From: Desulfuromonas sp. AOP6
GTDB lineage: Bacteria > Desulfobacterota > Desulfuromonadia > Desulfuromonadales > SZUA-540
DNA length: 64,000 nucleotides
Direction: 5' to 3'
Assembly (NCBI RefSeq): GCF_009731355.2
Contig: NZ_AP022810.1
Location: 2,260,001 to 2,324,000, forward strand
A program made the position numbers and the translations under genes. Below the pieces are notes generated by a model, which saw nothing but the letters and a program-made list of their open reading frames with translations, was not told where the DNA came from and made no database searches. Shown here one piece after another: positions 4,296 to 22,700 of the stretch (the stretch's first letter is position 1; each line of letters begins with the position of its first letter).

Positions 4296-4381
4296 GCCGA
4301 AGTGGTGGAATTGGTAGACACGTCGGTCTCAAAAACCGATGGCTTCTGGCCGTGCCGGTTCGATTCCGGCCTTCGGCACCA
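4296..4381 (+). tRNA. tRNA-Leu (anticodon CAA), integration target of the element
   Basis: An 86-nt class II tRNA with acceptor stem GCCGAAG/CTTCGGC, anticodon loop CTCAAAA (anticodon CAA, reading UUG), a variable arm and encoded CCA. Its 3' half from 4325 is duplicated at 22637, so the gene stayed intact on integration. The element sits immediately downstream. Confidence 0.96.
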
Positions 4382-4388
4382 CAGCAAA
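4325..4388 (+). repeat. attL: 64-bp direct repeat, left end of the element
   Basis: Identical base for base to 22637-22700. It runs from the 5' strand of the tRNA-Leu anticodon stem through CCA into seven bases past the tRNA. The sequences differ on both sides of the matched block. Confidence 0.93.
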
Positions 4389-4460: not shown

Positions 4461-4497
4461 ATGGCCCTAGTTTGGGGTCAACAAAATGGAGGCTCAA

Positions 4498-5469
4498 ATG
4501 GCTTCAATCCGCAAAAGAGGTCCCTATCAATGGCAAGTTAAAATCCGCCGTCGGGGATATCCTCTCCAGTCAAAAACATTCGAGACCGAAGATGACGCCA
4601 AAAAATGGGCGCGGCTTATTGAAAGCGAAATGGACCGGGGAATATTCGTTTCTCAAGCCGAAGCAGAGCGCACTACCCTTGCCGACGCCCTGGACCGATA
4701 CCGCAGAGAGATCACCCCGGGCAAAAAAGGCGGAAAGCAGGAGAACAGCAGAATAAACATTCTTTCAAAAACCTCTCTCGCGCCCCGCTTTCTTGCCACC
4801 ATTAAAGGTTCTGATATTGCCAAATATCGGGACGAAAGACTTCTAGAGCGAAGTCCTATCACGGTTAATAATGAGCTGATTCTTTTATCTCACCTGTTCA
4901 CTGTTGCCAGAAAAGAATGGGGCTTAGAAGGGCTGAGAAACCCTGTAAGCGATATCCGCAAGCCGAAACAGCCGGCAGGCAGGGAAAGAAGACTGCTGCC
5001 TGGCGAGGAAGAACAGTTGCTCAAATCTGCCCCCGTTAAACTTCGCCCGATTATTGTCCTGGCTCTTGAGACCGCTATGCGTCTAGGTGAACTTACTGAA
5101 TTAAACTGGAACAACGTGGATCTCACCCGGAAGATTGCTCACCTCACGGAGACAAAAAACGGATCCGCACGAACGGTTCCTCTTTCTTCAAGGGCAATTC
5201 TTGAATTAAAGGCTATCCCCCGCCGCCTGGACGGGAAAGTTTTCGGCTATTCTTCGAACACATCCAGCAAGGCTTTTGCTGCACTGGTCAAAAACCTAAA
5301 GCTGGAAGATCTCCGGTTTCATGATCTGCGCCACGAGGCCACCAGCCGCCTTTTTGAAAAAGGGTTGAATCCGATGGAAGTGGCAAGCATTACTGGGCAT
5401 AAAACATTGCAGATGCTGCAAAGGTATACCCACCTCCGCGCAGAGGATTTGGCCGTCAAGCTGGGGTAA
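4498..5469 (+). CDS. Tyrosine recombinase/integrase of the element
   Basis: This 323-residue site-specific recombinase should insert and excise the element at tRNA-Leu. The N-terminal part (about 1-50) looks like an arm-binding domain, 60-155 like a SAM-like core-binding domain, and 165-323 like the catalytic domain. All catalytic residues are visible: Arg195 in AMRLGEL, Lys220, His275 and Arg278 in HDLRH, His301 in TGHK, and nucleophile Tyr310 in RYTHL. An in-frame ATG exists at 4486, but GGAGG at 4488-4492 lies five bases before ATG 4498, so the shorter start is chosen. The gene directly adjoins attL, as is usual for tRNA-targeting integrases. Confidence 0.95.
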   Translation: MASIRKRGPYQWQVKIRRRGYPLQSKTFETEDDAKKWARLIESEMDRGIFVSQAEAERTTLADALDRYRREITPGKKGGKQENSRINILSKTSLAPRFLATIKGSDIAKYRDERLLERSPITVNNELILLSHLFTVARKEWGLEGLRNPVSDIRKPKQPAGRERRLLPGEEEQLLKSAPVKLRPIIVLALETAMRLGELTELNWNNVDLTRKIAHLTETKNGSARTVPLSSRAILELKAIPRRLDGKVFGYSSNTSSKAFAALVKNLKLEDLRFHDLRHEATSRLFEKGLNPMEVASITGHKTLQMLQRYTHLRAEDLAVKLG

Positions 5470-5549
5470 AAAACAGCCCTTTCTTTCCTTGACCCAGATC
5501 CTCCCGGCAAGGTAAAAGAAGCTTGAAGCTTTATTTTTTTATGCAGTGT

Positions 5550-5561
5550 ACTGTATACAGT
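5550..5561. promoter_or_regulatory. Palindromic operator candidate before the methyltransferase gene
   Basis: ACTGTATACAGT is a perfect 12-bp palindrome 24 bases before the chosen ATG. The flank reads TACAGTGCAA, close to the TATAGTGCAA boxes at 7866-7975. An 11-bp core (CTGTATACAGT) also occurs upstream of gltA at 29929. A regulator-binding role is inferred. Confidence 0.45.
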
Positions 5562-5584
5562 GCAAAACACAGGGGCGTTATTTT

Positions 5585-6538
5585 ATGCAGTTTACATCTT
5601 TAGAAATCTGTGCGGGTGCTGGTGGCCAAGCTCTCGGCTTGGAATTGGCAGGCTTCGGACATGCGGCACTAGTGGAAATAGAACCCCCCGCCTGCGCTAC
5701 TCTTCGTTTAAACAGACCATCCTGGAATGTCATTGAAGGCGACTTGAGGGCTTTTGACGGTACCCCTTACAAAGGTATTGACCTGTTAGCGGGAGGGGTT
5801 CCGTGTCCTCCCTTCTCAAAAGCAGGCAAGCAGCTTGGGGCAGAAGATGAACGCGACCTGTTCCCGGAAGCGATCCGTCTTGTAGACGAGTGCAGGCCCA
5901 AAGCTGTGATGCTCGAAAATGTCAGAGGGCTTCTGGATGCAGTATTTGATGACTACCGGAATAAGGTTGAAAAACAGCTTAAAAAACTAGGATATGTTCC
6001 AGGCTGGAAACTTCTGAATGCTTCTGATTTTGGAGTTTCTCAGTTGCGGCCTCGCGTTGTATTTGTAGGAATCCGAAAAGATTTCTCGGAAAAATTCACC
6101 TGGCCCAAAGGACCTGACGCCCCCCCCTTGACAGTCGGGGAGCTTCTTCATGACCTCATGAAAGAAAACGGATGGAAAGGCGCTGATCGCTGGCGGGAGC
6201 AGGCTAGCAGTATTGCCCCCACGCTTGTCGGTGGTTCCAAAAAGCATGGAGGCCCAGATCTTGGCCCAACGCGTGCTAAGCGTGCCTGGGCAAGTCTTGG
6301 CGTTGATGGCATGGGGCTTTGGGATGAGGCTCCACCTAAAGACTTCGTCGGAATGCCTCGACTGACTCCCCGGATGACGGCAAGAATCCAAGGCTTCCCA
6401 GACACCTGGCTTTTTTATGGCAGAAAAACAGCCACATACCGCCAGATTGGCAACGCATTCCCTCCCCCGGTTGCTAAAGCGGTTGCGGGGCAGATTTTTG
6501 CAGCCCTTTCAACCAATCGCATTTTCAAGGTAGCCTAA
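5585..6538 (+). CDS. DNA (cytosine-5) methyltransferase, modification subunit of NgoMIV-like system
   Basis: The 317-residue protein carries the ordered C5-methyltransferase motifs: LEICAGAGGQALGLELAG (motif I, AdoMet site), GGVPCPPFSKAGKQ with catalytic Cys74 (motif IV, here PCPPFS, not PCQxFS), ENVRG (motif VI), QLRPRVVFVG (motif VIII), then a variable target-recognition region. The end has QIGNAFPPPVA (motif X). It should methylate a cytosine in the site cut by the neighbouring enzyme and so protect the host. I use ATG 5585; the longer frame starts at a GTG at 5546 overlapping the palindromic operator. Its stop overlaps the next ATG by one base, indicating coupled translation. Confidence 0.93.
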   Translation: MQFTSLEICAGAGGQALGLELAGFGHAALVEIEPPACATLRLNRPSWNVIEGDLRAFDGTPYKGIDLLAGGVPCPPFSKAGKQLGAEDERDLFPEAIRLVDECRPKAVMLENVRGLLDAVFDDYRNKVEKQLKKLGYVPGWKLLNASDFGVSQLRPRVVFVGIRKDFSEKFTWPKGPDAPPLTVGELLHDLMKENGWKGADRWREQASSIAPTLVGGSKKHGGPDLGPTRAKRAWASLGVDGMGLWDEAPPKDFVGMPRLTPRMTARIQGFPDTWLFYGRKTATYRQIGNAFPPPVAKAVAGQIFAALSTNRIFKVA

Positions 6539-7401
6539 TGACTTCACTATCCCAATTTGCGGCGGCCAGAAAAGCTTTCCACGCTTCACTTTTGACTAAT
6601 TTGCTTACAATCAACGCAAAGGGCGTCCCCAGCAATGCAGACGGAAGTAACACAGCAAGTATTAGAATTGCCAGGGGTATTGCCGATCTCCTAAAAGCAG
6701 AAACAACAGGAGATCGAATGCCGGGGCAGACTTCGGGAAACCATTTTGAAAGCCTTTGTGCCGATTTTGTACAAAGAACCTTTTTAAAGCTTGGCCATCT
6801 CCGGCCCGGCGCATGGGACGTTCATCAAGTAACCGGACGAAACCGGCTTGAAATTGCCAAGTACGAGCAGTATTCACATCTCGTCGCCCTTGATCGCGCA
6901 GCAAAAAACGATTCAGAACTTGCAGCGGCACTGGGAAGTGATTACACAATTACGCCAGACATCGTTGTCGTCCGTGGTACAGAGGAGGATGAACGCATAA
7001 ACGTCCCCAGTCTTCTTGTAGACAACGACGTTACAACTCTTGCAAGTCTTCGGAAAATAAACGGCGGCCTTCCGCTCCTCCATGCAAGCATCTCTTGCAA
7101 ATGGACCATTAGGAGTGACCGTGCACAAAACGCCAGATCAGAAGCCCTCAACCTGGTCAGGAACAGAAAAGGCAGACTTCCTCATATAGTAGTCGTAACA
7201 GCGGAACCAACACCTAGTCGTCTTGCTTCCATTGCCTTGGGCACTGGAGATATAGACTGCGTTTATCATTTCGCGCTTTATGAATTACAGGAAACGGTTA
7301 AATCTCTCGGCATGGAGGACGCCGCCGACATGCTGGCAGTCATGGTGAGCGGGGACCGGTTAAAAGATATTTCCGATCTTCCTCTTGACCTTGCTGTTTG
7401 A
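6538..7401 (+). CDS. NgoMIV-like type II restriction endonuclease
   Basis: At 287 residues this is almost the exact length of R.NgoMIV (286), a tetrameric enzyme cutting GCCGGC. Active-site residues known for NgoMIV appear shifted by only one: Glu71, Asp141 (TPDIVVV), Ser186/Cys187/Lys188 in SISCKWTIR, and Glu202. The following IRSDRAQN block (192-195) corresponds to the Arg/Asp region that reads the CCGG core in this enzyme group. The same-site partnership with the upstream C5 methyltransferase fits. GCCGGC specificity is inferred from similarity recalled from memory and is not proven. On a mobile element such a pair also works as an addiction module. Confidence 0.88.
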   Translation: MTSLSQFAAARKAFHASLLTNLLTINAKGVPSNADGSNTASIRIARGIADLLKAETTGDRMPGQTSGNHFESLCADFVQRTFLKLGHLRPGAWDVHQVTGRNRLEIAKYEQYSHLVALDRAAKNDSELAAALGSDYTITPDIVVVRGTEEDERINVPSLLVDNDVTTLASLRKINGGLPLLHASISCKWTIRSDRAQNARSEALNLVRNRKGRLPHIVVVTAEPTPSRLASIALGTGDIDCVYHFALYELQETVKSLGMEDAADMLAVMVSGDRLKDISDLPLDLAV

Positions 7402-7491: not shown

Positions 7492-7619
7492 GACCAGTCC
7501 AGCACAGCAGGGGTTGACTAGTCGGGCAAGGTTTTGTCTGTCTAGTCCAGTTGCTTTGTGGTTGACTAGTCGGGGTGGTTTTGGGTGGACTAGTCTAGTT
7601 GCTCCTACTGTGACTAGTC
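7492..7619. repeat. Six 8-bp palindromic boxes at an exact 24-bp period
   Basis: GACTAGTC or one-base variants start at 7492 (GACCAGTC), 7516, 7540 (GTCTAGTC), 7564, 7588 and 7612. Spacers also alternate: even units carry GGG then GGTTTTG, odd units carry CAG or TAG then often TTGCT, giving a 48-bp super-repeat. It lies between convergent transcripts, and the last box overlaps the stop codon of the small gene at 7614. An iteron, centromere-like or oriT-linked role is possible. Confidence 0.8.
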
Positions 7620-8322: not shown

Positions 8323-8376
8323 TGCTCAATTTCCTTTCATTTCAATATGTTGCTGGTTGATTGGCGGGCCTTTTTG

Positions 8377-8552
8377 CTGCCAAACTGCTGCCAAACTGCT
8401 GCCAAACTGCTGCCAAACTGCTGCCAAACTGCTGCCAAACTGCTGCCAAACTGCTGCCAATTTGCTGCCAAACTGCTGCCAAACTGCTGCCAAACTGCTG
8501 CCAAACTGCTGCCAAACTGCTGCCAAACTGCTATCAAACTGCTATCAACTGG
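8377..8552. repeat. Tandem array of 15-16 units of an 11-bp repeat
   Basis: The unit CTGCCAAACTG starts at 8377 and repeats every 11 bases. Thirteen units are perfect; unit 8 (8454) reads CTGCCAATTTG and unit 15 (8531) CTATCAAACTG, and a sixteenth (8542) is degenerate and runs into the end of the DotA-like gene. The 11-bp period is one helical turn and not a codon multiple, which argues against a protein repeat. It lies in the short gap between the DotA-like stop and the next leftward gene. Confidence 0.95.
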
Positions 8553-10713
8553 CTGTCGAAAGTTCGCGGTCTGTCTTGCTGACCTTTGAATCTTCCTCGC
8601 CTGCCCGGCCTCGGGCTTTTCGGTCCGCTCCGGCGCCGGGTTCCCCGCCTTCGCTGCCGCCCGACATGGCTCTTTTGGCTGCTGCACCCGCCCCGCCGCT
8701 CATCGGTTTTGTTGCCGCAACGGCAATACCGCGAAGCCGTCCTTCGTCCTGCACCTCACCTAGATTTTGTTCAAGTTGACCGATCCAGCGGATCACTTTT
8801 TCCGGAAGATATGTGACCAACCCGAAGATTTTATGGGCAAAAACAACGAAAATTGCACAGAGAATGACGCTTTGCGCGATCCAGGTCAGAACCCCCGTCA
8901 CCCGGCCCGCCTGGACGGAGTTGTAATAAACAAGGAATGACTCGCCGATAAAATTCCCGACAACCGCAAAGATCACCATCGCAGAGAACAGGCCGGCAAC
9001 CATTAGGGGCGGCCTTGCCAATACCCCGAACAGCAGCAAATAGCCCTGTCTGCCGTGCTGACCGGCCATGCCATCCCCCTCGGGCAGCATGTGTGCGACG
9101 GCCCAAAGAGGGGCGGCAAAGAGGGTTTCAACCACAAGGATCAGCCAGCTAATAACGCTGCCGATCCAGAGCACAAAGGGCAGCAAGGGTAGGTAGAAAG
9201 CACAGAACAGCCCGACGCCCAGGAGAGTGACAGCCACGGCGCCGACAAGTTGAACAGCGCGGTCAACAACGACTTGCAAGCCGGAGGTTGCAGCCGACGC
9301 CCCACCGAGAGTTATAAGATCCACGACAGGGTTTGACGCGGCGGCATCGCCGGCGGCTGTGAGAGCTTGCAGGCCAATCGCTGCAACCCAAGCGGTCTGC
9401 ATCCCGCCGATGAGCATATGGCCCCAATCCGCCAGCGCGGTAATCGGGTCATTTTCAGACAGTTTCCGCGCCACATAGTAGACAGGTCCCTGGCCGTCCA
9501 GGCCGATTGCATCTGTAATAAACCGGGTTGCCCTAACTATCACGGAATCCTCATCAACGCCCTGTTGTGCGGCATTGTACCGGGCCTGCCGGGCTTCCCT
9601 GGCTTTCGCTTCTGCAGACCACCAGAGCGCATCAAATGCGGGGTCATTGCTGGAGAAGGACGCCAGCCGGGCTTGATTTGCGGGCCTCATTAGCGGCATC
9701 CCGCTTGAAAGGTCGTGGCTGTAGCCTGAAAACCGGCTGAGAGTCCAGTAATAGGACCCCAGCATCAACCAGCCGTCTTTCTGGGCCTGCTCGATAAAGC
9801 TGTCTAGGCCCTCTTGAAACCGGGGGTTGTTTTGGTTGATGATTTCGCCCAAGACTGGGGTAATCCGCGATGTGTATTTGTCCACCGCGCTTAGAATAGT
9901 GTCCGGGTCCAGGGTGCCGGGGGCCGGGACACCATTGTCCTCAAGTTCCTTTTCACTCATGACCGACGCCGCCAAGGTATGCGCGGCAGGCTGCAAGGCG
10001 CTCAACATGTCAAACATTCCCTGCGCCCGGGCTTGGCAAACGCGGTCCTGGTGGGACGTGCAGGGGATAATGATTGCGCCCATTTCTGCGAGTTTTACCG
10101 AAGAATCCGCCGGAGGTTCGAAGAAAAGAACGTACTCCGGCCGCTCTGGGGTCGGGTTCGATACCCGGACGATCTGGCTGAATTCCTGCTGCAGCTTGTA
10201 ATTCATGTAGCGCTGGGCGGCCATGATCTGGAGCGCCTGACCGGCTATTTCCTCGGCGTTCTGCCGCAGGGACGGCGGCGCGGACACCGTGACCTGCCCG
10301 CCGTTGTCCTGGAGGTATGAATAACCATTATTTGCCAGGTAGTTAGCGAAGCTGACGGAATGCCCCACACAAGCTAAGACTACAACCATCAGCATCGACA
10401 AGCCCTTGGCGGAGGGGATCAGCAGGGCGACGCCTACTGCCCCGCGCACGGGGGTCCAGAGGGTTGAGAGCTTGCCCATCGGCTTGCCCTCATGCGCCGT
10501 GCCGATGATTCCAATCGAGATGGAATAGCAAAGGACAAGCGTTCCGATTGCCAGGGCAACGACGGACATTGCTGAGAGCAGGGAAAGAATCAATGTGGCC
10601 GCTTCGCCGGCTGCGCCGCCGCTCGTGATCTGCGTTAGACTCTCCCAGTTTTCGCCAAAGAGAGCTTTTAGCATTGAGCCGCTTACGTCCCCGGCTGGGA
10701 TATCCTCAAACAT
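8545..10713 (-). CDS. TraY/DotA-like inner-membrane transfer protein
   Basis: A 722-residue protein with clusters of hydrophobic helices near 40-70, 85-120, 440-500 and 490-640, and a large polar loop between about 130 and 430. The membrane block ending APLWAVAHMLPEGDG, PPLMVAGLFSA and HKIFGLVTYLPEKVIRWIG is what I recognise as the DotA/TraY family of type IVB secretion and IncI-type conjugation. The C-terminal 80 residues are a low-complexity Gly/Ala/Lys tail. The gene follows a TraX/IcmV-like gene by two bases, the same order as traX-traY in IncI plasmids. No other type IVB components are seen on the element. In IncI plasmids TraY is the target of entry exclusion, which may explain why it is carried alone. 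Confidence 0.82.
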   Translation of the reverse strand: MFEDIPAGDVSGSMLKALFGENWESLTQITSGGAAGEAATLILSLLSAMSVVALAIGTLVLCYSISIGIIGTAHEGKPMGKLSTLWTPVRGAVGVALLIPSAKGLSMLMVVVLACVGHSVSFANYLANNGYSYLQDNGGQVTVSAPPSLRQNAEEIAGQALQIMAAQRYMNYKLQQEFSQIVRVSNPTPERPEYVLFFEPPADSSVKLAEMGAIIIPCTSHQDRVCQARAQGMFDMLSALQPAAHTLAASVMSEKELEDNGVPAPGTLDPDTILSAVDKYTSRITPVLGEIINQNNPRFQEGLDSFIEQAQKDGWLMLGSYYWTLSRFSGYSHDLSSGMPLMRPANQARLASFSSNDPAFDALWWSAEAKAREARQARYNAAQQGVDEDSVIVRATRFITDAIGLDGQGPVYYVARKLSENDPITALADWGHMLIGGMQTAWVAAIGLQALTAAGDAAASNPVVDLITLGGASAATSGLQVVVDRAVQLVGAVAVTLLGVGLFCAFYLPLLPFVLWIGSVISWLILVVETLFAAPLWAVAHMLPEGDGMAGQHGRQGYLLLFGVLARPPLMVAGLFSAMVIFAVVGNFIGESFLVYYNSVQAGRVTGVLTWIAQSVILCAIFVVFAHKIFGLVTYLPEKVIRWIGQLEQNLGEVQDEGRLRGIAVAATKPMSGGAGAAAKRAMSGGSEGGEPGAGADRKARGRAGEEDSKVSKTDRELSTAS

Positions 10714-10715
10714 TT

Positions 10716-11198
10716 TTAGGCCCTCCCCAGAATCCAGTCTTTGAAGAAGAAAAACCGTTCACATTCAAGAACCTGCACACGCCAGTAACGACAGACAACC
10801 ACGACGATTGACATGAAAAGAATCAGCGCCGCGCTGATGATCGGGAAAAGCGCGTTTGTTTTGTAACCGAAATACAAACCATAGAAGGAACCCAGCCCGA
10901 AAATGAAATAGATAAAGATCTGAACTTTCATAACCTGGATGACCTTCGGCAACTGCTCCCGCGTGATCCCCCAGTGCTCCAGGACTTCATCAAAATTGTT
11001 CAGGTCTGGCGCTCCGGGGGCGTTCGGATCGCGGTTTGCGTGGAGGTCTTTCAGATGTTGCTTGATTCGACTTGTCGAATTCCTGATGATTTCATGAGCA
11101 AACCGCCTTTCATAAGGGTTTACGCCTGCTTTCACGGCTTCGACGTGGCCCCGGGCGAACCATCGCAGGGGTTTTGTTGCTCTTCTGAAAAATCCCAT
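10716..11198 (-). CDS. Small membrane protein, TraX/IcmV-like
   Basis: 160 residues: a basic N-terminus, a soluble part to about 90, then two transmembrane segments (about 92-112 and 116-138), and a short C-terminal tail rich in aromatic residues (CERFFFFKDWI). Size, topology and position directly before a TraY/DotA-like gene match TraX of IncI plasmids and IcmV of the Dot/Icm system. That is a recollection-based comparison, not an alignment. It would sit in the inner membrane with the DotA-like product. The start ATG 11198 is two bases after the stop of a 37-residue gene, so translation is probably coupled. Confidence 0.6.
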   Translation of the reverse strand: MGFFRRATKPLRWFARGHVEAVKAGVNPYERRFAHEIIRNSTSRIKQHLKDLHANRDPNAPGAPDLNNFDEVLEHWGITREQLPKVIQVMKVQIFIYFIFGLGSFYGLYFGYKTNALFPIISAALILFMSIVVVVCRYWRVQVLECERFFFFKDWILGRA

Positions 11199-13099: not shown

Positions 13100-13383
13100 G
13101 CAAAAAAAATCGTTTTTCTTCTTTTTTTTCAGGTAGTTGCGTGTTTGGTTTTAGGGGGTAAAAACCCAACAGAAATAGCAAGGGTTGCACTAGGAAATGC
13201 ACTGCCGACAGCCAGCCACCAACCCCTTCCCCACCCGGTTTTGACTTTGACCTTGTTTTTGACTTTGAAATTGCAACAGCAAACGGCCCCGAATCTTTGC
13301 GACAGGCGCGTGAGCGCAGGCCCACCGGCCTGTGTGCAACGCAAAGCGTTGTGCATAGGCCGCGGGACTTCTAGCAGAAACCT
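13100..13383. other. Non-coding spacer between relaxase gene and transfer operon
   Basis: No supported gene. It holds AT-rich tracts upstream of the promoter, a weak minus-strand hairpin (AACCC/GGGTT with five T, about 13158-13188) that may end relaxase transcripts, one TTGCACTA (13185-13192) matching the 7858-7975 boxes in reverse, and a TGTGCAACGC/GCGTTGTGCA inverted repeat near 13330-13354. Confidence 0.5.
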
Positions 13384-15903
13384 TCAATCAAAATCCGGTT
13401 CCCAGTCGCTCGAAAGTTCCAATTCAAGTTCAAGCTCTTTTTCGTTCTCCTTGATCTGGATTTCTTCAACCTCTGGTTCCTGGGTTTCCAGTTCCGGCAG
13501 CTCCGGTGCGGCTTCATAGTCAAGGCTCGTTTCCTTTTGCTGTGAGCGCGCCATTGCCTTCTCCAGTTTTTCCAGGTTTTCAGCCTCAGCGACGATTGAC
13601 CGATCAACATATAAATGGGCGCTGTCTCTGTGCCTCGACATTTGAACGTAGCTCATTTCACGGTTCGTCATTGAGCCGCCGCCCAAGACAAAGGTTTGAT
13701 CGACGGTCACGCCCTGGGCTTTATGCGTCGTGACCGCATACCCATGGCTTAAATGGCTATATTTGTCAGAATCGAATTGCACGCGCTCCCCCGAATCCAG
13801 CTTAACCGTCATTCTCCACCCCTCATCCTTACCCGGGATCATCCTTTCCAAGGTTCCCAGAGTTCCGTTTTTGACACCAACCTGTTTGCTGTTCCTCTCA
13901 AAAAGGATTCGGTCTCCTTCCTGAAATTCCAGTTTTCCCCTGCTTTCCGTCTGGATCTCGGCCCCAGGCCCCAGGCGTTTTTCGTTTTTTAAAGTTTCCC
14001 GGGCAAGGCTATTGAGCTGGGCAACCTCGACCCTTGTTGAAGCAAGCATTAAAGCCTCGGCAGGTCTTGCTTTGTCCCACGCCTGCCGCCAGTCCGAAAC
14101 CATGATTTTCATGGTTTCGGCGCGGTTTTCTCCTATATGCAGGCATCCCCGCTGGGAATACTCACGCAGGGCCTCGGCGGCTCGGCCTGCGGCGAAGTTA
14201 TGGGTTGCTTCGATGGCCCAGGATTCGCGTTGCCTTCGGATCTCAGTCAGTTCAGCAAAGCCGGTTTTGCTAGAAATCGCTTTAAACGCGCCGCCGGCGT
14301 CCACCGGCTGCAATTGCTTGTCATCGCCCACCAGGACCAGCTTTGCGCCGGATTGCTGGCAAAGTTCGACAAGCTTTGAGGTCTGGCGGCTGCCAACCAT
14401 GCCAGCCTCATCAACGACAAAAACCGACTTGCTGTGAAGCCGGGTCTCCCCGGCTTCGATTTCTGCAAGGAGGCTGTGAATCGTCTGGCTCTTGATGCTG
14501 CTTCCCTCTTCCAGTCCAGCTGCGGCTTTACCCGCCAGGGCTGCGCCTCGGACTTCAAAACCTGACTTTTCCCAGGCTTCCCGCGCTGCGCCCAGGAGAT
14601 AGCTTTTTCCCGCTCCGGCCATGCCGACCAAAGCGCTGATTTGGTTCGGCTTGGTGATAGATTCCAGGGCCGCCGTCTGCTGATCTGACAAGGTTCGGGA
14701 AGACTTGGCGGCCTCCAGGGCTGCCGGGGTGACAATATGTGTTGCCCGGGCGGCCATGCCTTCTGCGTTCTGCACCATCGTTTTTTCGATCCGGAGCATT
14801 TCTGCAGTTGTAAAACGCTCTTGTCCGTCTTTGCCGATCAGCCGTATTAGATCGGGCGATTTCTGGAGATCTTCGACGAAGGATTTTATTTCCCGGGAGT
14901 TCATGACGCCTTGCGCTTCGACGGCAAGAGCCCGCATTAAATCAGATTTTTTGAAAGTGCTTTGCTTCTCGGTCAGCTTCAAAAGGATCTCTTCTTTTGT
15001 TGGTCTGACCGCCGGTTCTGCCGGCTGCGCCGCCTTGACCTCCTCCATGTCAAAATCGAATTCCCGGCCCGTGGCTCTCCATTCCTCGAAAAGCTCCGCG
15101 CGGGGCCTTCCTTCTTTTGCTTGCCGGGAGTCTAGGGCGGCTACTTCTGCCGCTTTCGCGCCTTTAAACCCGCTGTTTTCAAGGGCTTGCTCGATGGCCT
15201 CCCGCCTTTTTGAGAACTCTTTTTCCAGGTCTTTGGGACTGCCGGCCATCCGGAAGGAATCGCCGTCGCGTTCGACAGCGAAGCCCATTTTCTGCAGTTC
15301 GGCGGCAAGTTCGGCCCGATAGATCGCGCCTGCCGCCATTTTGTTTTCAAACATTCCTCGGGTTTCCAATGTCCCATAAGTTCCGTCTTGCCGGGGGCAA
15401 AGATTGGCGATGAGAAGATGCGTGTGCAACTGGGGGTCCTGAGCGCGGCTTGTGCTGTGCTCATAGCTCGCGCAAATCAGCCCTGCCGGGCGCTCCGCTT
15501 CGGCTCCACCCTTTCCCCTGCGGGTGACGGCCACGGTTTCCAGGTGGTCAAGGGCAGCTTTCACGGCCCGGTCTTGGGCCGTCTGGATCTTCTGCCGGGT
15601 TTCCTGTTCTGCCTGGGACCAAACCGTCGATACTGATTTTGGCGCAGAAAAACAAAAGTCCCAGCCCGGGCGGTGATTTTCGCGCCCGGCACTTTGGACC
15701 AACGGGGAGGTTTCGCCCTGGCGGGGGTCATAACCAGAGAACAACCGGCGGTAATGGTCTGTGTTGACTTGCCCGGCCAGACTCAGTGATTTGCAGCCTT
15801 CGCCAAGCCATTGCCCCGGCGGTTCGCCGCCGGTCTGGTAGTAATCTTCCTGGGCAAGCTCGGCGTAATATTCAAGATTGGATATGTTTGAGATACTCAG
15901 CAT
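13384..15903 (-). CDS. MOBF conjugative relaxase-helicase (TrwC/TraI type)
   Basis: This 839-residue bifunctional enzyme nicks oriT and unwinds the transferred strand. Relaxase domain, about 1-290: double tyrosines Tyr12/Tyr13 and Tyr21/Tyr22, Asp82 in [10 protein letters not shown], and the metal-binding His149, His160 and His162 ([11 protein letters not shown]). All align in spacing with TrwC Y18/Y26, D85 and H150/H161/H163. Helicase part: Walker A GMAGAGKS at about 427-434, Walker [11 protein letters not shown], and a RecD-like ending with [16 protein letters not shown] near 720-750. It is shorter than TrwC (966) and F TraI (1756). A Glu-rich tail closes it. Its ATG is two bases after the coupling-protein stop. 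Confidence 0.95.
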
Positions 15904-15905
15904 GG

Positions 15906-18071
15906 CTAGAACTCCTCTTCTTCCTGATCGTCATCAATAGTCGGCACGGTGTCTGCTGCCGGCGATTTTGGCCCTGATGGGCCGCTCAAAACCCCGGCAC
16001 CCAGCGCCGCAAGCTTGGAAAGCGTGTCGGTCTCTTCCAGTCCCGGCATCATAATTTCCATGACTTCCCCGGCGGCCTCTTCCTGCGCGTCGGCTTCTTC
16101 ATCATCTTGCTCGACCGTGCTTTCCTTGGCTTCCTCCGTCGCCACGGGTGGTAGCAATTCGGGGTCAACCTGGGCGGTCTGCTGGGGTTCTGGTTTTGGT
16201 TTTGGTTCGGGCTTCGGTTTGGGTGCCGGGGCTGGTTTTGCTTCTGGTTCGGCCTGGCTTTGCTCCTGGGCCTGATTTTGTGCAGGACTTCCACCTTCCC
16301 CGCCTTCGCTCCGTTTCTTTTCCTCCTGCTGCATCTCATGATGAAAATCAAGAACCTGCTTGGTTTTCCTGCGCTTTGTCCAGGCTGCTGGCTCATCCTC
16401 AGAACGAACTATTTCTGCATCGACCCAGGGCCAGAGCAATTTATAGACGGTTTGGCCACCCGTCAGCAAAAGCCCTTCGACCGCCTTTTGTTTTTCCCGA
16501 TTTCCAAGGGTGGAAAACTCGTCGGGCCTGACAATGTACTCGTCCTGCTCCTGCCAGCTGTCTTGTCGGCTGTCGCCTGTTGATCCGCCAACCCCGCCGC
16601 CGGAGTAGCTTGCAACATATTTCCGGGTCTTCTGCTTTCCGCACAGCTTCGCCATGAATTCGGCAGTTTCGACTGCCAGCGCACGGCCCAAGAAGTAGGT
16701 TCCAATATTTGAGGTCCAGTTCTCGGCGGTGTGCTCTCCGTAAACTTCTCTTATTTGCGAAATATTTTGACTGCCAATTATCATTCTGACGCCTTTTGAC
16801 CGCCCGACTTCCAGCATTTTTGTTAATGTGGGGACTTTCCCGACTTGTATAATTTCATCGAAGACAAACCAGATTCTTCTGGTTCGTGATTCGGTCATTG
16901 TCGGACTTGATACAGTCGCTCCAATAACAGCCATGATGGCTTGAATATAGCTTTGTTCAAGTTGTTTATATCTTTCATTGCCCTGCAGAATTATGATTCT
17001 ATGCTTTGGGTTTTTGTGTTTTTTGTCGGTCAACAGCCACTTTCTGATTGAAATAGCAGGTTTTCCATTCCAGGCAGCGGCTAAATCAGACACGGTTGAC
17101 ATGTAGGAACTGAGAACCACCAAAAATGATTGTGATGTCTTTGTGATTTCTTCGCTTTCGACCAGTCCTGACGCCTCCGGGGTATATTTCTGAATAATGG
17201 CTCTCAGGTGCTTATAGCCCCTGGCGATTTCCTTCAAAACGTCTTGTAGGTCCCACTCTTCTCTTTCTTTTATTAGGAACACCAGGACGGCCGTGAGGAT
17301 GGCCCGGGCCGCGTTGCTCCACATCGGGTCCGAGCTGTCTTTGATGAGCGCCTGGGCGAAATTCCGTGCATCTGCGATGTTTTCAAGGTCTTCCGAGATC
17401 TTCCACGCCGCGCAACGCTTGTCCCAGGGGGCCAGGATTACGCCGCCGAATCTTTGAGTCCATTCGCCTTTATTGTCATAGATTAGGAGACGGTCTCCCC
17501 GAGCAGCAGCAGCTTTCGTTATTGGAAAAATAAAGGTGGTTTTGCCCGCCCCGCTCCCGCCGATGGCAAATACATGCTTCGTCTCTCGATCCAGACTGAT
17601 CGGCACCCCGGGGAAGATCTCAATGCCGTCTCCCCCTTTTCCAACCTCTTTTTTCATTTCTTTTTTGAGCTTTTCGACGGCTGGTTCTTCTTCCTCCAGC
17701 TGCCGCCCTGCAAGATGTTCGACGGCGGGCTGCGGGGTTGCGAGCCACCAGCCCAGCCAACCCGCTAGGGTAGCCCCCAGGGCGCCGACCGATGCGGCGG
17801 CCTGGGGGGCAAAGCAGTAAGGCATGGGGAACCGGGTATAAATGATTTTGAAGTTTCTGGCAGACCCAAAAACATCGACCCCGGCCAGCCCCAGGGATGA
17901 CTTGAAAATAGAGAGCGGCCGCCATCCGTTTTCCTGGAAAATCGGCAGATAGCTGATGGCCCAGGCTGCCGCCCAAGCCCCAAGGGCCAGCCCCAGACCC
18001 GCAAAGGTCAGGGTGCAAAGGGCCGTTCCTTGCAGGTCTCGGGGCTGCCTCATTACCTTTTTCTTGTCCAT
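15906..18071 (-). CDS. Type IV coupling protein (TrwB/TraD-like ATPase)
   Basis: The 721-residue protein should link the relaxosome to a secretion channel at the inner membrane. Transmembrane segments lie at about 16-42 and 86-110. The motor domain follows with Walker A GGSGAGKT at 171-178 and Walker B WFVFDEI near 395-402. After about 590 comes a low-complexity tail of Lys-Pro and Glu-Pro repeats and an acidic end, longer than in TrwB. I start at ATG 18071, four bases after AGGAGG; the frame to 18146 overlaps the upstream gene without a ribosome site. Order RHH-coupling protein-relaxase equals trwA-trwB-trwC of R388. Confidence 0.93.
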
Positions 18072-18087
18072 GGGGCCTCCTACTCGC

Positions 18088-18444
18088 TTAACGGTTTGCC
18101 GGCCGCTGCTGGGCCTGCTGTCCTGGTTGCTTGCCGGCCCGTTCAAGGACGAGGGCGTTATTTTGCCGCACGATTTTTTCCTGACCTTCCGCGAGGATTT
18201 TCATCGCTTCGAATACAATTCCTAGTTTTTCCATCAACAAAGTTTCGATGTTAGAAATTCGGTCAGCGGTTCGGGTTTCGAGTCCGGCAAGGCGGGGTTC
18301 GATCCCCCCTTTTAGTTTGTCTTGGCAGGCTTGCCGGACAAAATCGGCAGGCTGCATTTTCTGCTTTTCGGCGGTTTTTGTGATCTCGTCCCACAGGGAA
18401 TAGGGGAACCTTATCCCTCTGCTTGTGCTTTTTTCAGTCTCCAT
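18088..18444 (-). CDS. Relaxosome accessory protein, TrwA-like RHH
   Basis: 118 residues. The N-terminus reads as a ribbon-helix-helix: SRGIRFPYSLWDEITKTAEK then MQPADFVRQACQDKL. The centre to C-terminus is a long helical stretch (RTADRISNIETLLMEKLG, then MKILAEGQEKIVRQ) suited to tetramerisation, ending in a Gln-rich tail. TrwA of R388 has the same two-part layout; it binds oriT, boosts TrwC nicking and represses its own operon. ATG 18444 follows AAAGGA; the longer frame runs into the TGTGCACA repeats. It sits at the head of the coupling protein and relaxase operon beside the presumed oriT. Confidence 0.8.
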   Translation of the reverse strand: METEKSTSRGIRFPYSLWDEITKTAEKQKMQPADFVRQACQDKLKGGIEPRLAGLETRTADRISNIETLLMEKLGIVFEAMKILAEGQEKIVRQNNALVLERAGKQPGQQAQQRPANR

Positions 18445-18804
18445 CGGGCAATCCTTTCTTTTTGTGGGTGTGCACGTGTGCACATACTGTTGTTAGGGGG
18501 TCCGGGCCTCATTTCTCTTCTTTTTGTGCACATCGTTAAAATTGCTTTAGAAAACCCTTTTACAGTGTGCACAAACGACTACAAAACAGGGGTTTTGGTG
18601 TGCACACCGGCCTTTTTTTGGCGTTGCCCATGTGCACATCCTGTAAAATCTGGCTTTTCCTGATTTTTGGGGCGCCTTGTGTGCACACCCCATGTTGCCC
18701 ATGTGCACACCGCTTTTTTGCTGGTCAATTGGCGCGTCGCGGTGCCTTTTGTGCACACCCAAGGGTGAGTCGGGTGTGTAAGAAAAACCATGTCGCCTTT
18801 GGGG
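18445..18804. other. Presumed oriT and promoter region of the mobilization operon
   Basis: A 360-bp stretch without supported genes between the TrwA-like gene and the secreted-protein gene. Nine palindromic TGTGCACA-type boxes are scattered through it. In R388 oriT lies directly upstream of trwA, which is the equivalent place. A weak minus-strand promoter (TTGTGC, 17 bases, TCTAAA, about 18573-18545) overlaps one box, which would suit autorepression. The nick site itself cannot be pinned down. Confidence 0.6.
18469..18757. repeat. Nine TGTGCACA palindromic boxes
   Basis: Starts at 18469 (TGTGCACG), 18477, 18525, 18566, 18599, 18631, 18680, 18702 and 18750. Eight are the perfect palindrome. 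Spacing is irregular (8, 48, 41, 33, 32, 49, 22, 48), unlike the 24-bp and 11-bp arrays. Binding by the adjacent RHH protein is inferred. Confidence 0.88.
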
Positions 18805-19515
18805 TCAGGTAAATCCCAGGATTGTTACCTTCATGGGGACTGTCCAGGAAGTGCCTCCGCCATCCCCGACCTTATAGTTCCACAAAGTAATATAGGAGGA
18901 GTTAACGCCGATCACTTCCACGTCCGTCTCGATAATGCTGATCCCGGCGTAAGCCTTCCCCCTGCCCAACGAGTAAGACAAGAGCCAGTTTACTGTCCGG
19001 GGGAAATAGGCATTGATTGACGAGTTTGCTGGGACGCTCACGGTCAGCCACATGATTGTGAACCCATCAGGGAAGCGGTAATACCCGTTCCCGCTATCCC
19101 CTGAAAACACCCCACCTGTCGGCCAAGAGGTCTTAGTTTCTCCTCCCAGGGTGATAGAGGCGGCCGTCATGCTGTTGGCCTGGACTGAATTCAGGCGCGA
19201 GGTGCTGGCCGGGTCTGCAACGTAATACGTGTTGTGCTTGTCATACATCCGCCCAGCTACTATATTTCCCTCTACGTAGAGGCCGCTCAAGGAGGATGCC
19301 CCGCTGGGGTTGACGTAGTAACCCGTATTGTCGCTGTCATAGAGGATCGGGGTCCTCATGTCTCCGGTGGCACGCACGGTACTGGCGTTCGTGATCGCCG
19401 TACCGTGCCGATCCATCGTGGTGTTCTGCACAACCCCTGGAGGGGCATAGCTGGTCGAATCGGCAGCGAAAGCAGGCGAAGAAAACAGCAAAAGCAGCAG
19501 AAAAAATTTCTTCAT
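18805..19515 (-). CDS. Secreted tail-fibre-like/adhesin-like protein
   Basis: 236 residues with a clear signal peptide (KKFFLLLLLFSSPAFA, cleavage after about residue 17). Two tandem copies of a Y-D-x-x-N-T-x-Y-Y motif follow (ILYDSDNTGYYVNPSGASSL and RMYDKHNTYYVADPASTSRL), a repeat typical of phage tail fibres. The C-terminal 90 residues resemble fibre tip domains (FPDGFTIMWLTVSV, INAYFPRTVNW). Export by Sec makes a virion role unlikely. A pilus-tip or surface adhesin acting in mate recognition is a reasonable guess. Its start overlaps the preceding stop by one base. I know of no assigned function. Confidence 0.65.
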   Translation of the reverse strand: MKKFFLLLLLFSSPAFAADSTSYAPPGVVQNTTMDRHGTAITNASTVRATGDMRTPILYDSDNTGYYVNPSGASSLSGLYVEGNIVAGRMYDKHNTYYVADPASTSRLNSVQANSMTAASITLGGETKTSWPTGGVFSGDSGNGYYRFPDGFTIMWLTVSVPANSSINAYFPRTVNWLLSYSLGRGKAYAGISIIETDVEVIGVNSSYITLWNYKVGDGGGTSWTVPMKVTILGFT

Positions 19516-19715: not shown

Positions 19716-20204
19716 TTATGCCTCCCCTACATGATGAGATATGGACACGGAGGGCGGAGAGCTCAGGGGTAGGCCCCGGCGTTGGTAGTAGTCGGCCAGG
19801 CTGGCACCGCAGCTCGCCCAGCCAGCGGCAGGCCTCATTTGGTCAACTTCCTTTATTTTCTCAAGGATTTGCGCCCGGCTTGCTTTGCCCGAAAAAAACA
19901 ATCGGGACATGGCCTGGAATACCTTGTAGCTGTCCGGGTCGGTGGGGGCAAATCGCTCCTGGACCCGCTGGGCTTGCTGCCGATCGGCGCGGGCCGCCCC
20001 GGCCTCCCTCACCATCCGCAGAAAAACGATCGGCGCGGGTTGGGTCGTGAAGGTCCTCTCGAGCGCCTTGAGGGCGTCGCGCACGTTTTCGGCGGCCTCT
20101 CTCTCCAGGTCCTGAGCCAGCCGCTCCCTGGCAGCGCGGGGGTAGTCCCTAGCAAACATCATTTCGATCGTCTTGACCGCTTCTAATGCGTGTTCTTTCT
20201 TCAT
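19716..20204 (-). CDS. Hypothetical protein, possible replication-partner role
   Basis: 162 residues, Ala/Arg/Glu-rich and mostly helical, with a single WASCGASLADYYQRRGLP segment near the C-terminus. No family is recognised. It starts within the ATGA overlap with the stop of the HTH protein gene, so the two are translated together. In phages and some plasmids an HTH initiator is followed by a helicase-loader-like partner of this size; that placement is the only hint of function. Confidence 0.6.
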   Translation of the reverse strand: MKKEHALEAVKTIEMMFARDYPRAARERLAQDLEREAAENVRDALKALERTFTTQPAPIVFLRMVREAGAARADRQQAQRVQERFAPTDPDSYKVFQAMSRLFFSGKASRAQILEKIKEVDQMRPAAGWASCGASLADYYQRRGLPLSSPPSVSISHHVGEA

Positions 20205-21037
20205 CTGATCTCTCCTTTCTCGTACAACTCCATGAAGGTTTCGAACGGCTGGGGGCCTTCTCCGCCCTGCTCCTCTTTTCTTTTCCAGCCAGCCATCTGC
20301 CCTCTGTCTTCCTCAGACAGCCCGCCTTGGTCGATTATTCTGTTTTTCGCCTTCCGTGCCCAACCTGTCGGGCTGAACGGAGGGCCACCAGCAGACCCGA
20401 ACAGCAAGCCCAGGCGGAGGTATTCTTTGATTTCCTCCTCCCTGCCCTGGATGGGGGTGGGGAAAGATCGATCAAAAAAATCACCACCACCACCCGACTG
20501 CTCATCACCCTCCCCTGCCTCCTTTTCATTTCCCTCCTTGGTGGTGGTGGTGGTCTGTGGTGTTTCTGGTCTGTGGTGTTTCTGGTCTGTGCTGTATATA
20601 TGGGGGGGTGAACCGTCACCCGGTGAACCGTCACCCGGTGAACCGGCGCCGGTTGACCCGCCATCTCCGGGTAACCCGCTCATGGGCTTTTCTTCCTTTT
20701 TCTTCTCCTTGACACGCCGCCTTTCTGCATAAAAATCAACATCTTGCGACTCGCCGTAAATCTCAGACACCCAGTCGTACCCCCCACCCGGTAGGCGGAT
20801 TTGCCGCCTTTTAATGTAGCCCGCCCGCTCCAGACTCTCGACTGCCCGTTTCAGTCTGTCTTTCCCCCACCCCGTTTCTTTTTTTATTTGATTGGGTCTA
20901 AATTCCCACCCAGGGGGGCGGCTGATAAGCCGCACGAGAAGGCCCAGCTCATCGAGCTGGAGCCGGGGGTCGCGAAGAGTTTTGACGGGCAGCAGCTCGA
21001 ACTGGCCAGTCGGTTTTACTATTTTGTAGATCGACAC
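20201..21037 (-). CDS. Winged-helix replication-type protein
   Basis: About 278 residues from the GTG at 21037, chosen because AAGG-rich sequence precedes it and because recognisable protein begins there (FELLPVKTLRDPRLQLDELG). Residues about 10-90 form a helix-turn-helix like the N-terminal domain of phage O-type initiators: PPGWEFRPNQIKKETGWG, then RLKRAVESLERAGYIKRR. The middle is low complexity, including in-frame GSPGD repeats encoded by a 15-bp tandem repeat near 20609-20655, and a poly-Thr run. Replication initiation of the excised circle is possible; a regulator is the alternative. The long frame to 21598 is not convincing protein before this point. Confidence 0.65.
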   Translation of the reverse strand: MSIYKIVKPTGQFELLPVKTLRDPRLQLDELGLLVRLISRPPGWEFRPNQIKKETGWGKDRLKRAVESLERAGYIKRRQIRLPGGGYDWVSEIYGESQDVDFYAERRRVKEKKKEEKPMSGLPGDGGSTGAGSPGDGSPGDGSPPHIYSTDQKHHRPETPQTTTTTKEGNEKEAGEGDEQSGGGGDFFDRSFPTPIQGREEEIKEYLRLGLLFGSAGGPPFSPTGWARKAKNRIIDQGGLSEEDRGQMAGWKRKEEQGGEGPQPFETFMELYEKGEIR

Positions 21038-21041
21038 CGCC

Positions 21042-21353
21042 TTACCCCCTTCTTTCCCTGACTTCCTGGGCCTTGCTCTTTCTTCCCATTTTCCCTTTCC
21101 TTGCCGGGCTGCCTTCTGCCTCACCCCCTTCTTCCCCCTCTGGCTGATTTCTCTGGTCCAGCCACAGCAGCAGGGAGCGGGTAGGGTAGAGAATGGCTCT
21201 GCCGTTTTTGACACAAGCTGGCCCTTCGCCCTGGCAATCCAAGTTCGCCATCCTCTTTTGAGACAACCACGGAAAATAGGTTTGGATTTGGGCGCGGGGA
21301 ATGATAGGCGGAAATCGATCTTCCAGGTCCAAAAAACTAAACTCTTTCTCCAT
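21042..21353 (-). CDS. Putative excisionase/AlpA-like DNA-binding protein
   Basis: 103 residues from ATG 21353, which follows AAAGGAGG at ideal spacing. The core (PRAQIQTYFPWLSQKRMANL, then VKNGRAILYPTRSLLLWLDQ) reads like a winged-helix or MerR-like domain in which a helix-turn precedes a Gly-containing wing, as in excisionases and AlpA regulators. The tail is basic. It is the first gene of the leftward array, next to the divergent operator at 21447. It overlaps the frame of the next gene's upstream extension but not its chosen start. Xis function is inferred from fold and place. Confidence 0.55.
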   Translation of the reverse strand: MEKEFSFLDLEDRFPPIIPRAQIQTYFPWLSQKRMANLDCQGEGPACVKNGRAILYPTRSLLLWLDQRNQPEGEEGGEAEGSPARKGKMGRKSKAQEVRERRG

Positions 21354-21446
21354 CTGTAAACCTCCTTTTTTCTGCCTTGTTGAACCCAGGATATCCCCCC
21401 GCATCCAGAAAAAAAAGAGAGCAAATTTGAGGGTATTTGAATTAAT

Positions 21447-22636: not shown

Positions 22637-22700
22637 GGTCTCAAAAACCGATGGCTTCTGGCCGTGCCGGTTCGATTCCGGCCTTCGGCACCACAGCAAA
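22637..22700 (+). repeat. attR: 64-bp direct repeat, right end of the element
   Basis: Copy of 4325-4388: the 3' half of tRNA-Leu(CAA) with CCA and seven following bases. The 5' half is absent, so it is not a functional tRNA gene. Confidence 0.93.

Follow-up and report, generated by a model that had tools for sequence, protein, structure and literature searches.

In the record of the IncW plasmid R388 (NC_028464), the genes for the relaxase, TrwB, and TrwA point in one direction and are followed by a 453-bp gap with the known nick substrate, which is read on the strand opposite trwA with its hairpin on the trwA-proximal side. The same gap holds four copies of the repeat ATGATGCA beyond the nick and beside the divergent stb genes, an array that we take to be the StbA site. 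The R388 hairpin, CGCACC-GAAA-GGTGCG, has a 6-bp stem and a 4-nt loop, and the nick lies 8 nt 3′ of it (PMC4814116). A related arrangement is that of the Ptw plasmid of Burkholderia cenocepacia, in which the gene for an RHH protein without similarity to TrwA precedes TrwB- and TrwC-like genes, and oriT, as shown by mobilization, occupies the upstream gap (PMC4853378). In RA3, the RHH protein MobC acts from a palindrome adjacent to oriT to repress the operon that encodes it, and it also stimulates transfer (PMC4175270); in the relaxosome of F a train of three TraY molecules is bound (PMC12117103). SGI1, a mobilizable island without a full T4SS, carries copies of TraN, TraH, and TraG that remodel the helper's pore; its replacement of the helper's TraG is thought to disable or escape entry exclusion (PMC5389848). 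In IncI plasmids, it is TraY that ExcA recognizes (PMC11493245).

The integrated element and its transfer operon

The locus examined here lies in a 64,000-nt stretch of the Desulfuromonas sp. AOP6 chromosome, referred to below as the window. A tyrosine integrase gene (4486-5469, + strand; PF00589, 3.4e-28) lies beside tRNA-Leu(CAA), and an exact 64-bp direct repeat on the + strand is found at 4325-4388, in the 3′ part of the tRNA-Leu, and again at 22637-22700. In both of the two same-genus genomes the site is empty, with contiguous flanks and an intact tRNA-Leu. The att repeats, the integrase, and the empty sites thus point to a mobile 18.3-kb element that is absent from two near relatives. 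Its cargo includes a cytosine methyltransferase and an NgoMIV-type restriction enzyme (5546-7401; PF09015, 9.4e-127). Downstream of the restriction gene is a second palindrome array (7493-7619), composed of four exact copies of GACTAGTC (7516, 7564, 7588, and 7612) and two variants at a spacing of about 24 bp, with 0.28 exact copies expected in the window. A further repeat, the 11-bp direct repeat TGCTGCCAAAC in 15.4 copies with 96% matches, lies at 8375-8543, immediately downstream of the DotA gene described below.

The minus strand of the element carries an operon in the order RHH protein, TrwB-like protein, MOBF relaxase, small genes, IcmV/TraX-like protein, and DotA/TraY, extending down to 8545. 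The TrwB/TraD-like coupling protein (723 aa; 15906-18077; PF10412, 2.9e-70) aligns with R388 TrwB at 26% over 383 columns. The MOBF relaxase-helicase (839 aa; 13384-15903) matches PF08751 (5.8e-81), NCBIfam MobF (1.6e-71), and TrwC in the PDB (chain 1omh; 9.9e-37), and carries YY..YY and HTH (HUH-type) motifs. The small first protein of the operon (118 aa; 18088-18444, minus strand), a candidate relaxosome accessory protein and autorepressor, is predicted by fold only to be an RHH protein: its single-sequence AlphaFold model has a pLDDT of 83, and the best solved matches of this model in Foldseek were Arc, NikA, and CopG, at a probability of up to 0.99 and an E value of 0.1 or more. Pfam gave no match for this protein, and the PHROG profiles gave an Arc-like repressor (9.7e-5), which agrees with the predicted fold and with the original prediction of an RHH protein. 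The gene order claimed there, RHH-coupling protein-relaxase, is likewise borne out by the profile searches together with the predicted fold, and the match to trwA-trwB-trwC with its oriT gap, in direction as well as in order, can be read directly from the R388 record.

The likeness to R388 thus comprises gene order, direction, the gene-free gap, a MOBF relaxase, a TrwB-like protein, and a small first protein (118 aa here vs. 121 aa in R388). By contrast, neither the nick core nor the RHH protein matches R388 by sequence (BLASTP of the RHH protein against TrwA, E 17), and R388, a conjugative plasmid, encodes an MPF_T system of its own, whereas the operon described here belongs to an integrated element without a recognizable complete system. 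The nearest precedent for reading gene order in this way is Ptw, where an RHH protein dissimilar to TrwA also heads the TrwB- and TrwC-like genes. Ptw differs in being a plasmid with an F-like T4SS, and its gap, compared here by its published description only, is reported to contain inverted repeats and 15-bp direct repeats and no palindrome array (PMC4853378).

Relatives of the relaxase were found in 2 of 136 genomes of the order and 6 of 395 genomes of the phylum, the window being counted in both, and none were found in viral contigs; the relaxase scan of genome contigs returned one locus, on the same contig as in G061. The closest relaxase (52%) is encoded on contig DIVU01000341.1 of Desulfuromonadaceae bacterium UBA6124 (L014), which ends at its coupling-gene start, short of the region equivalent to oriT. 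No palindrome array adjoining a coupling or relaxase gene was seen in this contig or in loci L024, L025, L027, L028, and L029. Comparison of the non-coding gaps of the element with L014, L015, L024-L029, and L031 revealed nothing significant in common. As DNA, the region 18445-18804 gave nothing above chance level in the nine genomes searched and no match in plasmids.

The box array and its candidate hairpin

The array heads the transfer operon in a gap that is free of genes at exactly the predicted coordinates, 18445-18804, since the RHH start codon lies at 18444 and the next gene ends at 18805. That neighboring gene (18805-19515), which has the direction of the transfer operon, encodes a secreted-looking protein with weak PHROG matches to phage structural and tail-fibre proteins (0.0009 and 0.0047), perhaps a pilus-tip adhesin. 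The array itself, predicted as nine palindromes, is real and beyond chance, but its count has to be amended to eight exact copies of TGTGCACA plus one imperfect copy, TGTGCACG, within 18469-18757 (289 bp). Boxes 1 and 2 (18469-18484), the former being TGTGCACG starting at 18469 and the latter TGTGCACA starting at 18477, directly adjoin each other, giving an 8-bp register, and lie 24 nt from the start codon of the RHH gene. The other copies of TGTGCACA are box 3 (18525-18532) and box 4 (18566-18573), which together fall in an 18-nt inverted repeat of 83%, box 5 (18599-18606), box 6 (18631-18638), box 7 (18680-18687), box 8 (18702-18709), and box 9 (18750-18757). Start-to-start spacings are 8, 48, 41, 33, 32, 49, 22, and 48, without a single helical register.

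All eight exact copies of TGTGCACA in the window lie within the array. Dinucleotide shuffles of the region (n = 2000) yielded a mean of 0.05 copies and a maximum of 2, and every other palindromic 8-mer in the window stays at four copies or fewer in any 360 bp. The array is also the sole place in the 3.27-Mb genome where pairs of TGTGCACA occur 8-38 nt apart. Such pairs are present in 2 of 146 other related genomes (G067 and G125), and no transfer genes were seen near box pairs elsewhere among the ORFs of L007 and parts of L006; triples are present in none of the 394 other genomes of the phylum sample. A literature search on the palindrome TGTGCACA, judged by title, returned nothing related. 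Three stretches with TGTGCACA triples do occur in viral contigs (L039, L040, and L041), and they were rejected as transfer regions; all are situated inside small-terminase-like genes. They read as VCTQ/VHTK peptide repeats, two of the three contigs match Terminase_2 (2e-35 and 8e-36), and the triples are possibly packaging-site repeats.

From the sequence, the boxes are predicted to form what is probably a docking array for the element's own RHH protein, and binding of that protein to the boxes appears likely. MetJ, another RHH protein, binds abutting 8-bp palindromes. Boxes 1 and 2 adjoin the ribosome-binding region, which suggests an operator, and the promoter scan detected no sigma-70-like promoter in 18300-18900. 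The MobC protein and OM site of RA3 provide a parallel in that an RHH protein with a palindromic operator next to oriT combines autorepression with an aid to transfer, but RA3 differs in having one imperfect palindrome and a MOBP relaxase (PMC4175270). Searches for the RHH protein in 147 relatives and in 395 genomes of the phylum hit only the genome that encodes it, with one chance-level match among 72,556 plasmid records and none in viral contigs, so that these samples offered no relative in which covariation of boxes and protein could be followed. In the oriT regions of R388 and F, no palindromic 8-mer is present in more than two copies, so the nine boxes are an addition rather than a feature shared with R388.

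The gap also contains, at 18582-18597 on the + strand, the hairpin CAAAAC-AGGG-GTTTTG, a candidate relaxase-binding inverted repeat. Outside the boxes, no second hairpin in the gap has a stem this long (6 bp or more, with loops of 3-7 nt), and this one shares with R388 the 6-bp stem, the 4-nt loop, and the polarity, being on the strand opposite to the first gene, as in R388 to trwA, and 5′ of the nick, which here is a predicted one. The distance from its 3′ end to the RHH start codon is 153 nt; the corresponding distance to trwA in R388 is 148 nt. When the boxes were held fixed and the spacers shuffled (n = 20,000), a hairpin fell within 10 nt of the R388 distance in 0.26% of cases and within 5 nt in 0.17%; the frequency at which such hairpins actually occur (30 in the 64 kb) gives 0.98% and 0.51%, respectively. 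This test (chance about 0.002-0.01) was devised after the hairpin had been seen, and the R388 values that it uses are independent of the window. DNA folding of 18575-18612 returned the hairpin as the best structure at -4.4 kcal/mol, which is weaker than the hairpins of R388 (-7.6) and F (-6.5), and under RNA parameters it gives way to pairing between boxes 4 and 5. The AT-richest 50 bp of 18300-18899 (18525-18574; GC 36%) adjoin the hairpin.

Applied to this hairpin, the 8-nt spacing of R388 predicts a nick on the + strand between 18605 and 18606, inside box 5. We treat this position as a lead only, and as a doubtful one. Alignment to the nick cores of R388 and F did not rise above background in element-wide windows, the best rank of the site among 3664 windows being 149-240 for F and 2469 for R388. 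An early impression that the nick region resembles F (an A-run, a T-run, and GTG) was dropped, as the F core alignment is not above background. The sequence WATCAANNNNTTR, which we take to be the strict IHF consensus, is absent from 18300-18900 on either strand. A stronger hairpin is present at 13326-13362, within the gap of 352 bp that follows the relaxase gene on its 3′ side, where 13310-13365 folds at -17.9 kcal/mol (z -3.3) without a T-run on the transcribed strand; it represents a rival oriT site or a processing signal. Given nick-core alignments no better than background, the lack of a strict IHF site in the interval scanned, this stronger hairpin, and the two further repeat arrays of the element, oriT could lie elsewhere.

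Possible functions of the array

The oriT reading put forward originally is supported in part, by the order and direction of the genes, the RHH fold of the small protein, the gap, and a hairpin with R388 geometry that the original description did not mention; it finds no backing in the nick cores, in similarity to TrwA, or in a palindrome array in R388. Overall, we lean, with some reserve, toward 18445-18804 serving two purposes, as the oriT of an integrative mobilizable element of 18.3 kb and as the operator for the transfer operon. RHH dimers would bind the 8-bp palindromes, and occupancy of boxes 1 and 2 beside the RHH start would repress the operon. On the outer boxes, the RHH protein may bend and coat the region and so help the MOBF relaxase reach the hairpin at 18582-18597, which by analogy with R388 geometry would be followed by cleavage of the + strand at about 18605/18606. 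As in R388 and F, where the transfer genes enter the recipient last, those of the element would be the last to enter. The relaxosome would then dock to the TrwB-like protein and exit via the type-IVB (I-type) channel of a helper, in which the element's own DotA/TraY might be placed.

Several observations would also fit an array that serves as an operator only, with the RHH repressor coating the promoter region and oriT located elsewhere in the element. RHH-fold proteins are commonly repressors, boxes 1 and 2, next to the RHH start, follow each other directly with an 8-bp register, and hairpins occur in other non-coding gaps, the strongest being that at 13326-13362. Yet the boxes continue upstream of the RHH start for over 300 bp, beyond the needs of repression, and it is in this very gap that the R388-like hairpin sits. 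Moreover, the oriTs of R388 and Ptw occupy exactly such a gap (for Ptw, PMC4853378). We therefore consider a purely regulatory array unlikely, with roughly the standing of a minority view.

Two other roles are conceivable for an array of this kind. As a segregation or anchoring site, it would allow the RHH protein to stabilize the excised circle in the manner of StbA of R388; RHH proteins that bind arrays often do so at centromeres, and R388 likewise has a repeat array, ATGATGCA × 4, beside its oriT. The R388 array, however, lies beyond the nick and beside divergent stb genes, whereas here the boxes flank the candidate nick on both sides, the RHH gene is the first of the transfer operon, and no ParA-family gene was found among the proteins scanned, which makes such a role improbable. 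Still less credence can be given to the boxes being iterons of a replication origin. Repeated boxes are typical of theta origins, and the element does encode a replication-initiator-like protein (20201-21358, minus strand; PHROG replication initiation, 9.1e-9) that would be their ligand. But this gene contains tandem arrays of its own (20551-20595, 16 bp × 2.8, and 20607-20645, 15 bp × 2.6), which are themselves a possible replication origin, and for initiators of the lambda-O kind the origin is known to lie inside the initiator gene. The boxes, besides, are 1.4 kb from the initiator-like gene and next to the RHH gene, irregularly spaced, and palindromic rather than directional; an iteron function is very improbable.

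Channel genes and a tentative parallel to SGI1

Beyond the relaxosome genes, the operon preferred here as being under the control of a combined oriT and operator encodes a DotA/TraY-family protein of 722 aa (8545-10713, minus strand; TIGR04346, 1.3e-108) and a membrane protein that is weakly TraX/IcmV-like (10716-11198, minus strand; NF033887, 0.0046, and NF038219, 0.012, both below cut-off). Among plasmids, the closest DotA proteins are those of I-type-like plasmids of Nitratidesulfovibrio (32%) and Desulfosarcina (28%), and in the Nitratidesulfovibrio plasmid Dot/Icm genes surround DotA. No other channel genes and no complete T4SS were recognized among the element proteins scanned, and a candidate TraU-like query returned no matches in a search run without a positive control. 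Elsewhere in the genome, DotA matches were limited to one fragment, within a 209-aa ORF on the same chromosome (L015, 9146-9775), which is probably a relic of another element.

The presence of DotA/TraY together with the element's own relaxase and coupling protein fits a strategy like that of SGI1, as a conjecture from gene content. Like SGI1 (PMC5389848), the element appears to be a mobilizable island that brings along channel-protein genes, and no full T4SS was recognized among its scanned proteins. It differs in that its channel genes are of the type-IVB kind, namely DotA/TraY and the weak IcmV/TraX-like gene, and in encoding both a relaxase of the MOBF family and a coupling protein; it is inserted at tRNA-Leu and associated with another T4SS class, whereas the SGI1 family is recognized by trmE or dusA insertion and SGI1 channel genes. 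IMEs of the IEVchAut1 type also combine a MOBF relaxase with their own coupling protein, but are linked to IncC-type helpers and are described as being without components of the conjugative apparatus (PMC11493245). Our literature search for an IME with DotA/TraY and a relaxase, judged by title, found no report on such an element. We tentatively propose, as a possibility we would not yet favor, that the element corresponds to SGI1 in a type-IVB setting, in which an R388-like relaxosome would assemble on the nine-box array and nick within box 5, and the element's own DotA/TraY and IcmV/TraX-like partner would be inserted in the helper's I-type channel, giving entry into cells that exclude the helper.

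If this SGI1-like reading is true, the array would act as one switch that keeps every gene of the operon silent, those for the channel among them, until transfer. If the combined oriT and operator is right, the nick site would be embedded in an accessory box, protein occupancy could gate nicking directly, and the array of accessory sites would be denser than that of R388 or F. The oriT-RHH-TrwB-TrwC module would then be known from a small element integrated in a Desulfuromonadales-like bacterium, and the element would offer a testable case of type-IVB channel substitution, a counterpart of what SGI1 does to IncC plasmids.
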